From contig RECJ01000141.1 in the NCBI GenBank assembly GCA_007694115.1, positions 1-32,801 on the forward strand: 32,801 nucleotides of DNA. Direction: 5' to 3'. The stretch comes from Leptolyngbya sp. DLM2.Bin27. Its GTDB lineage: Bacteria; Cyanobacteriota; Cyanobacteriia; Phormidesmidales; Phormidesmidaceae. Both the position numbers and the translations under genes were made by a program. Each line of letters opens with the position of its first letter. Positions within the stretch are counted from its first letter, which is position 1. The notes under the pieces are model-generated. The model had not been told where the DNA came from and ran no database searches. It was given only the letters and a program-made list of their open reading frames with translations. Below are positions 27,540-29,768 of the stretch, piece after piece.

Positions 27540-28256
27540 CTACAGAAATGCCGCCTGCTGAGCCGCAAGCAGATCTTTTATGCCTAGCTCACCCACCTCT
27601 AGCAGCTGGTTCATCTGATGGCGGCTAAAGCTGCCCTCCTCGGCGGTGCCCTGCACTTCAATGATATTTAGGCTTTCGTTGAGCACCAGGTTAAAGTCTA
27701 CAGAGGCTGCAACGTCTTCTTCGTACTGCAAATCTAGGAAAGTGTCGTTTTCGATCAGGCCAACGGAGACGGCCGCTACGCTGTGCACCAGGGGCGATCG
27801 CCCTATCAAACCTTGCTCCACGAGACTTTGCACCGCATCTTTAAGCGCCACATAGCCTCCCGTAATTGAAGCCGTGCGGGTGCCCGCATCGGCCTGAAGC
27901 ACATCGGCATCCACCAGCAGGGTGCGCTCACCCAGCAGCTCAAAGTCGACAATCGACCGCAGGCTGCGCCCGATTAGCCGCTGAATTTCTTGGGTGCGGC
28001 CCGACAGCTTGAGCAGCTCTCGGCTCTGGCGCTGGGGCGTTGCCCCCGGCAGCATGCGATATTCCGCCGTTAGCCAGCCTCGCCCAGACCCTTGCAAAAA
28101 GCGCGGTACGCCCTCTTCTACCGAAACGGTGCAGAGCACCTGCGTATTGCCGCAGCGGGTCAGCACTGAGCCAGCCGCAAACTTCGTAAACTGTCGCTCA
28201 AAACTCACAGGACGCAGCTGGTGGGGGAGCCGACCATCTGGACGTTGCCAAACCAT
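27540..28256 (-). CDS. rph: Ribonuclease PH
   Basis: A 238-residue phosphorolytic 3'-5' exoribonuclease that trims tRNA 3' ends. ATG 28256 is preferred to a TTG five codons upstream because RNase PH normally starts with a sequence like [13 protein letters not shown] near residue 5. Signature segments: [24 protein letters not shown], given here as two overlapping blocks; [32 protein letters not shown] with the phosphate-binding Arg; and [19 protein letters not shown], containing the catalytic Asp residues. Full length for the family (about 240 aa). It is divergent from the CobO-like gene. Confidence 0.95.
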
Positions 28257-28594
28257 AGTTGAGGTGCCCAAAATACCTCATTTAGAATACAGCAGGCGAC
28301 GACCGGCAGCGGCTCTTTTCAGCCTCCCCCCAGATCCGGCTCCAGACCTGGAGAGCATGGACAGCCGGGGGCGCGCCAGGACGCCTTAAAGCAAGTAGCC
28401 GATTTACACAACTGAGCACATGTGGCGTAAGTGATCGATTTATGCCCTAGGAATTACGCTATATTTAGCCCAGCCACTGAGGTCGCCTCAATCTCTAGGG
28501 CAGCGGTAGGCCCTTTGGCCTAGCGGTTGTTAGGGGCGATCGCAGCCCTTCTCATCCACTTCTTCCCGCCAAGCCGCTCTCGGTGTGCCCGCCT
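28257..28594. other. Divergent gap between rph and the CobO-like gene
   Basis: This 338-bp gap separates two divergent genes and has a HIP1-like GCGATCGC near 28538. TATATT near 28459 with TTTATG about 17 bases before it is a weak plus-strand promoter candidate for the CobO-like gene and dcd. No ORF or RNA gene was recognised. Confidence 0.4.
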
Positions 28595-29149
28595 ATGGTC
28601 TCCCAGCTCAAGCCCCTACCGTTTTCATCATCAGCCACTTCTATCGTTCGGCACCCGCTGCTGCAAACCGTAGAAGGCACCGTGCAGGTGTTTACCGCCG
28701 TCCACCGCAACTTTTTCACCAACGTCATGGTTCAGGCTTTGCGCATTGCCGATCAAGGCAAAGCCGTCCTAATCGTGCAGTTTCTCAAAGGCGGCATTCA
28801 CCAGGGGGCAAATCAGCCCATGCAGTTTGGCCAAAACCTCGACTGGATTCGCTGCGACATGGCCCACTGCATCCATAACTCAGAGGTCAGCGCCAGCCAG
28901 CAACAAGCGGTTAAAGATCTCTGGGTTCACACCCAATCAGTCATCGCCAAGGGGCGCTACGGTCTAGTTGTACTCGACGAGCTCAGCCTGGCTGTCAACT
29001 ACGGTCTCATTCCCACCCAGGCCGTTGTCGACTTTCTCCAGCAGCGCCCACCCCAGGTAGATGTCATTCTCACTGGCCCAGACATGCCTGAGGCCCTACT
29101 CACCGTAGCCGACCAGGTGACCGAGTTTCGCCGCAACTTCCTGCCCTAG
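28595..29149 (+). CDS. CobO/BtuR-like protein lacking a Walker A motif
   Basis: A 184-residue protein from ATG 28595 (GTG 28583 is possible). It lines up with ATP:cob(I)alamin adenosyltransferases of the CobA/CobO/BtuR type in several blocks: ADQGKAVLIVQFLKGG (53-68), the Walker B-like YGLVVLDELSLAVNYGLI (122-139), VVDFLQQRPPQVDVILTG (144-161) and ALLTVADQVTEF (167-178). Where the family has its ATP-binding P-loop (GxGKGKTT), this protein has FTAVHRNFFTN (33-43), with no Gly-Lys-Thr at all. It is also shorter at the C-terminus, missing the usual HP... tail. It is therefore unlikely to bind ATP in the standard way. dcd follows 19 bp later in the same direction, so they form an operon. Confidence 0.75.
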   Translation: MVSQLKPLPFSSSATSIVRHPLLQTVEGTVQVFTAVHRNFFTNVMVQALRIADQGKAVLIVQFLKGGIHQGANQPMQFGQNLDWIRCDMAHCIHNSEVSASQQQAVKDLWVHTQSVIAKGRYGLVVLDELSLAVNYGLIPTQAVVDFLQQRPPQVDVILTGPDMPEALLTVADQVTEFRRNFLP

Positions 29150-29168: not shown

Positions 29169-29768
29169 ATGATCAAAAATGATGCCTGGATCGCACAAAT
29201 GGCCGCAAAAGGCCTAATCCAGCCTTTCCAACCGTCCCTAGTGCGGCAGCTAGAGCAAACCGCAACCCACCCTGGGCATCCCGTGATCAGCTACGGGCTA
29301 TCGTCCTACGGTTACGATATTCGGCTTTCACCCGCAGAGTTTCGCATCTTTCGCCACATCCCTGGCACCGTTGTTGACCCTAAAAACTTCAGCCCAGCCA
29401 ATCTAGAGCCCACCGCCCTGAAAACCGATGCCAGCGGTAGCTACTTTATCCTACCGGCCCACTCCTATGGCCTAGGGGTTGCCCTAGAGAAAATTTCTGT
29501 CCCCGACAACATCAGCGTCATCTGTATCGGTAAGTCTACCTACGCCCGCTGTGGTATTATTGCCAACCTCACCCCCGCCGAAGCCGGATGGCGGGGCCAC
29601 CTCACCCTAGAATTTTCCAACTCCTCCAGCGCCGACTGCCGCATCTACGCCAATGAAGGCGTGGTACAGCTGATTTTCTTTGAGGGAGAACCGTGCCAGG
29701 TGAGCTACGCCACTCGTCGGGGCAAATATCAAGATCAAGCAGAACAGGTGACCCTAGCTCGGGTTTAG
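29169..29768 (+). CDS. dcd: dCTP deaminase
   Basis: A 199-residue enzyme that deaminates dCTP to dUTP, feeding thymidylate synthesis. It starts with ATG 29169. The dUTPase-like trimeric fold is evident from GLSSYGYDIRLS (43-54), the nucleotide-binding GKSTYARCGIIANLTPAEAG (121-140) with Ser123, Arg127 and catalytic Glu138, and WRGHLTLEFSNSS (141-153). The C-terminal segment (YATRRGKYQDQ) closes over the active site. Glu138 falls at the same number as in the E. coli enzyme. Its start lies 19 bp after the CobO-like gene, and two hairpins follow its stop. Confidence 0.95.
   Translation: MIKNDAWIAQMAAKGLIQPFQPSLVRQLEQTATHPGHPVISYGLSSYGYDIRLSPAEFRIFRHIPGTVVDPKNFSPANLEPTALKTDASGSYFILPAHSYGLGVALEKISVPDNISVICIGKSTYARCGIIANLTPAEAGWRGHLTLEFSNSSSADCRIYANEGVVQLIFFEGEPCQVSYATRRGKYQDQAEQVTLARV

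Follow-up and report, generated by a model that had tools for sequence, protein, structure and literature searches.

The window, by which we mean the whole stretch of 32,801 nucleotides that was analysed, carries directly upstream of dcd a gene for a CobO-like protein in which the ATP-binding loop is replaced. This raises the question whether such a protein is a decayed gene product, a still active enzyme or a protein with a new task, and whether that task has to be sought in the neighbouring dCTP deaminase. The following features are needed for the answer:

27540 to 28271, minus strand: putative RNase PH-like gene, divergent, upstream of PRK07414 (named from its own sequence only)
28595 to 29149, plus strand: P-loop-less protein of the CobA/CobO fold, family NF005648/PRK07414, 184 aa (profile match and AlphaFold2 model)
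28691 to 28723, plus strand: codons of FTAVHRNFFTN (aa 33-43), at the place of the Walker A loop of CobO (GxGKGKTT), including the invariant Arg38
28976 to 28981, plus strand: codons of Asp128-Glu129, the retained Walker-B-like LDE
29169 to 29768, plus strand: dcd, dCTP deaminase, 19 bp downstream of PRK07414 (TIGR02274; adjacency conserved)

The locus and its family assignment

The PRK07414 open reading frame is genuine. It starts with the ATG at 28595 (MVSQLK...), a start kept among orthologues as MVSQL, and its stop ends at 29149; an in-frame GTG at 28583 represents an alternative start further upstream. The dcd product passes the dCTP deaminase equivalog TIGR02274 with 116.7 bits (cut-off 92.8), and the divergent RNase PH-like neighbour was seen again upstream of PRK07414 in several other families. 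A scan for promoters and terminators around the PRK07414-dcd operon found none, and matches to the perfect NtcA box (GTA-N8-TAC) are no commoner than expected by chance, with none upstream of PRK07414.

The window protein reaches 102.4 bits against PF02572 (CobA_CobO_BtuR, gathering cut-off 25.7) and 261.8 bits against the NF005648/PRK07414 equivalog, whose cut-off of 248 bits lies above the scores of many true PRK07414 orthologues. Against TIGR00708, the equivalog of the CobA enzyme, it scores 93 bits and falls 75 bits short of the cut-off (167.75); the genome's own CobO scores 247.3 bits. According to the AlphaFold2 model (pLDDT 87.2) the CobA fold is kept, the best matches being the CobA structures 1g5r, 1g64 and 4hut (Z 19), followed by thymidine kinases and RecA-type ATPases (Z 12). 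With the CobA/CobO/BtuR proteins (PF02572; PDB 1G5R, 1G64, 4HUT) PRK07414 shares, besides the fold, 28% identity and the VQFLKG, LDE and LTG...AD.VTE blocks. However, their GNGKGKTT is AVHRNFFT in PRK07414, their TGR is TGP, and their C-terminal FRQGxKAQxGIE tail is absent.

The original prediction regarded this as a new arrangement, which cannot be upheld: the family is already represented by a curated NCBI model ('P-loop NTPase family protein') and PRK07414 is hence not an unknown protein. This name is misleading, since no PRK07414 member inspected here has a P-loop, and the annotations 'P-loop NTPase' and 'cobO' are thereby corrected for many cyanobacterial genomes. In the literature searched, by family name or by the topics dCTP deaminase, adenosyltransferase, reactivase and chaperone, we found no papers on PRK07414.

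The replacement of the P-loop is conserved

The aligned loops read NTGNGKGKTTAALG in the CobO of the genome, FTGNGKGKTTAAFG in Salmonella CobA and FTAVHRNFFTNVMV in the window protein, which confirms the predicted loss of the P-loop from a CobO-like protein at the predicted coordinates. We compared 151 distinct orthologue sequences from more than 24 families, comprising all fetched loci which cover the loop. A Walker A motif (GK[TS] or GxGKGKTT) occurs in none of them (0/151), the position of its first Lys is Arg38 in 151/151, and the Walker Lys position itself is occupied by Phe in 148/151. The Walker-B residues are retained (Glu129 in 151/151, Asp128 in 150/151), Trp84 and Arg86 are each invariant (151/151), and the arginine of TGR is mostly Pro.

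Comparing PRK07414 with 12 canonical cyanobacterial CobO proteins, G28, G55, Q62, KG, W110, LDE, TG and AD..T are common to both. Specific invariants of PRK07414 are R38 in the former P-loop, Q70 after strand 2, and L82 and R86 in the strand preceding the corrinoid loop. The place of this loop (GEGFTW in CobO) is taken by CIH according to Phmmer and an ungapped reading, and the Trp finds a counterpart in a gapped MAFFT alignment; in the structure-consistent alignment the Phe-Trp corrinoid motif of CobA (the FTW) is apparently lost. Because PRK07414 has invariants of its own at R38, Q70, L82 and R86, its active site can be said to have been rebuilt and not eroded, and in the alignments a conserved x-H-R-x-F-F-T motif replaces the ATP-gripping loop. 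PRK07414 is therefore almost certainly a pseudoenzyme, a catalytically dead CobA paralogue, and because its active-site region, once remodelled, stayed conserved, probably one with a new job.

Local decay, a frameshift, a pseudogene or a sequencing error would have nothing in its favour except the missing motif, and this explanation is refuted by the recurrence of the same loop in 151 distinct sequences, which stem from more than 24 families. Intact P-loops in homologues, which would have spoken for it, were found neither in close nor in distant ones. Already the first search gave a match in all 57 relatives, and with one or two exceptions each of them had an orthologue above 30% identity; in G005 and G054 the only matches were weak ones to paralogues. 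In one incomplete genome the orthologue (L033, G024:C70) is split over two frames, probably by an assembly error.

Paralogues in the same genomes

In total the source genome has three PF02572 members: the P-loop-less PRK07414, a canonical CobO and the fused PRK07413. The canonical protein, with intact GNGKGKTT and GEGFTW, is the second cobO for which the original prediction had advised to look. PRK07413 (NF005647; G000:C94:33598-34722, L002) is a fused double CobO-like protein of 376 aa. Both PRK07413 and PRK07414 are cyanobacterial paralogues found in the same genomes and lost in most class I ribonucleotide reductase (RNR) lineages, but PRK07413 differs in having two CobO domains with both P-loops intact (GxGKGKS) and in being unlinked to dcd.

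A quickly built tree, some of whose branches are long, unites the PRK07414 proteins in a single clade (support 100) to which neither CobO nor either half of PRK07413 belongs. PRK07414 is an ancient cyanobacterial paralogue of ATP:corrinoid adenosyltransferase, and on the simplest reading of the sequences the P-loop would have been lost once, before the sampled cyanobacteria, Gloeobacter-like ones included, diverged. The Gloeobacter-like family f13 harbours extra divergent P-loop-less paralogues (L313, L314, L315, L316), some of them near helix-turn-helix genes and two on a 172-kb contig of G210.

Linkage to dcd

That the gene and its linkage to dcd would be conserved was borne out across the phylum. 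Using the criterion that dcd follows within 600 bp (<=600 bp) on the same strand, dcd comes immediately after PRK07414 in 36 of the 47 genomes holding both genes, and it adjoins PRK07414 in 64 of the 77 named loci with enough sequence, with gaps down to 3-20 bp. In picocyanobacteria the operon is PRK07414-dcd-thyX, divergent from ntcA. Because the linkage is present both there and in the deepest branch (G045), it is most simply ancestral, with several later losses.

Dependence on dcd as the main driver of PRK07414 presence is nevertheless weakened by the phyletic test. PRK07414 is kept in nine sampled genomes in which no dcd was found, among them G118 and G122, where it is fully conserved with bit scores as high as any, and it is absent from 12 genomes with dcd, nearly all of them with class I RNR. 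Its changes on the tree agree with those of dcd in only 1.8 of 6 cases. A single-chain model of PRK07414 fused to Dcd by reading through the stop had a pLDDT of 54 with the Dcd half unfolded, and gave no usable interface prediction.

Co-distribution with class II RNR

Most cyanobacteria, among them the commonest phototrophs of the ocean, obtain their DNA precursors through class II RNR. PRK07414 presence does not track dcd but this AdoCbl-dependent enzyme. On a tree of 79 genomes, built on 14 ribosomal proteins, 55 have both PRK07414 and class II RNR, 22 have neither, two have the RNR only and none has PRK07414 only; in G163 RTPR is present and PRK07414 absent. Class II RNR was called by TIGR02505, and in G045 by an intein-split NrdJ_Z-like gene without NrdB, a partial match below the curated cut-off of the model. 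This gene of the deepest-branching genome sampled (L183-L187, G045:C1:4163694-4167665) carries two intein-like insertions.

Fisher's test gives 3e-16 for this distribution, a value which ignores the tree and the relatedness of the genomes. On the tree PRK07414 changed six times independently, five of these changes coinciding with a change of the RNR state and none opposing it; the p of 0.06 in a sign test is the best reachable with so few events. The joint losses concern the pair G054/G160, G199, G158, one large clade and G097, and all of these lineages except G097 have class I RNR in place of class II. G097, a complete-looking genome of 3.8 Mb, gave no RNR by TIGR02505, PF00268, PF02867 or an RTPR protein query. 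Since canonical CobO is still present in most class I RNR genomes, a general loss of B12 is not the cause of the co-loss. PRK07413 occurs in 57 of 80 sampled genomes and is mostly missing from those in which class I RNR has taken the place of class II, a loss pattern nearly the same as that of PRK07414.

A class-wide sample of 144 genomes, which overlaps the first set, comprises 126 genomes with PRK07414 and RTPR, three with neither, four with RTPR only (G240, G256, G265, G099) and 11 with PRK07414 only. Six of the latter are members of the Gloeobacter-like family f13, which is represented by G045 with its NrdJ_Z-like class II enzyme; two others (G206, G230) have fragmented assemblies, and in the remaining three, all of f35 (G245, G282, G287), no RTPR was found. 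Nearly all class II RNR cyanobacteria sampled thus also carry PRK07414, and this co-distribution speaks for the link to a B12-dependent RNR that the original prediction had considered.

Possible function of PRK07414

We propose, tentatively and with not quite an even chance of being right, that PRK07414 is a non-catalytic accessory protein serving class II RNR, most likely as an escort of AdoCbl or as an accessory subunit of the RNR. As a pseudo-adenosyltransferase it would assist B12-dependent dNTP synthesis including the branch from dCTP via dUTP to dTMP: class II RNR converts CTP directly to dCTP, Dcd converts dCTP to dUTP, and ThyX forms dTMP. PRK07414 would most likely use its remodelled old active site to bind a ligand, either adenosylcobalamin or a dNTP, and would hand it to class II RNR or set the activity of the latter, possibly acting together with PRK07413. 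The proposal builds on the predicted CobA fold, the strongly constrained replacement of the loop, the ancient operon with dcd, the co-loss with class II RNR and the gene content of cyanophage PSS2, and it draws on what is known of the RNR/Dcd/ThyX pathway and on a human precedent. Class II RNR of Anabaena reduces NTPs (PMC8365446), marine Synechococcus and Prochlorococcus hosts have a monomeric class II RNR (PMC6370689), and the following steps towards dTMP are those of Dcd and ThyX (PMC7133116). Human ATR (MMAB) is an adenosyltransferase with a second task, the escort of its product AdoCbl to the user enzyme (PMC8633584); unlike PRK07414 it has the unrelated PduO-type fold, is catalytically active and serves methylmalonyl-CoA mutase. 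Against the proposal stand the small number of independent events, the RTPR without PRK07414 in G163, G240, G256, G265, G099 and cyanophage PSS2, the PRK07414 without RTPR in the three f35 genomes, the joint loss in G097 with no RNR found, the apparent loss of the Phe-Trp corrinoid motif, and the fact that PRK07414 adjoins dcd and not an RNR gene.

This position next to dcd suggests a different partner. PRK07414 could be a direct partner or allosteric subunit of Dcd, sensing a nucleotide or a corrinoid and tuning the deaminase, which would account for an operon found in 36/47 genomes and 64/77 loci and reaching from the deepest branch to the picocyanobacteria. We regard this as unlikely, because PRK07414 is fully conserved in G118 and G122, dcd persists without it in 12 genomes, and only 1.8/6 changes agree; the idea that PRK07414 specifically regulates dcd, raised in the original prediction, has not been supported by these data, and a role as AdoCbl escort or RNR accessory seems likelier to us. 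Distinctly unlikely, in our view, is also that the co-distribution stems from a general turnover of genes in a small number of lineages and that PRK07414 has an unrelated housekeeping role. The five to six independent events and the exceptions in both directions would fit such turnover, but no change is opposed, and the losses are not mirrored by dcd or canonical CobO.

The replaced loop itself could also belong to a still active enzyme with an unknown reaction, to which ATP, a different nucleotide or a corrinoid would bind in an unusual manner. The Walker-B Asp-Glu and the newly acquired invariants lie around the former active site, and thymidine kinases and RecA-type ATPases are the second-best fold relatives. 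However, nothing substitutes for the Walker Lys at its position (Phe in 148/151), the TGR arginine is mostly Pro and the cut-off of TIGR00708 is missed by 75 bits, which makes continued catalysis quite improbable. If the accessory role of PRK07414 in class II RNR function is true, a pseudo-adenosyltransferase which is lost together with class II RNR and co-encoded with Dcd and ThyX ties B12 status to dNTP supply, and PRK07414 is a directly testable candidate for a class II RNR helper.

Phage genomes and a possible cofactor-supply module

No PRK07414 was found in the phage isolates in which it was sought. In two IMG/VR contigs (L311:244-2060 and L312:75-1630) PRK07414-dcd-thyX lies beside cyanophage phoH-like genes. 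Because the sequence switches from host to phage inside thyX in both, we gave them no weight; they are likely assembly chimeras, possibly true recombinants.

A wider version of the proposal is that PRK07413, together with the PRK07414 that is run from the dcd-thyX operon, forms a dedicated module for cofactor supply to and regulation of class II RNR, i.e. a chaperone or reactivation system. We consider this conceivable but doubtful. The papers searched describe no chaperone, escort or reactivation system for class II RNR. Support for the module idea comes from cyanophage PSS2 (GQ334450.1), since this phage bundles a B12-dependent RNR (RTPR, 646.8 bits), a fused double CobO adenosyltransferase and Dcd. 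PSS2 has the RTPR without PRK07414, and its gene annotated as cobO (L175:7731-8765) is of the PRK07413 type with both P-loops.
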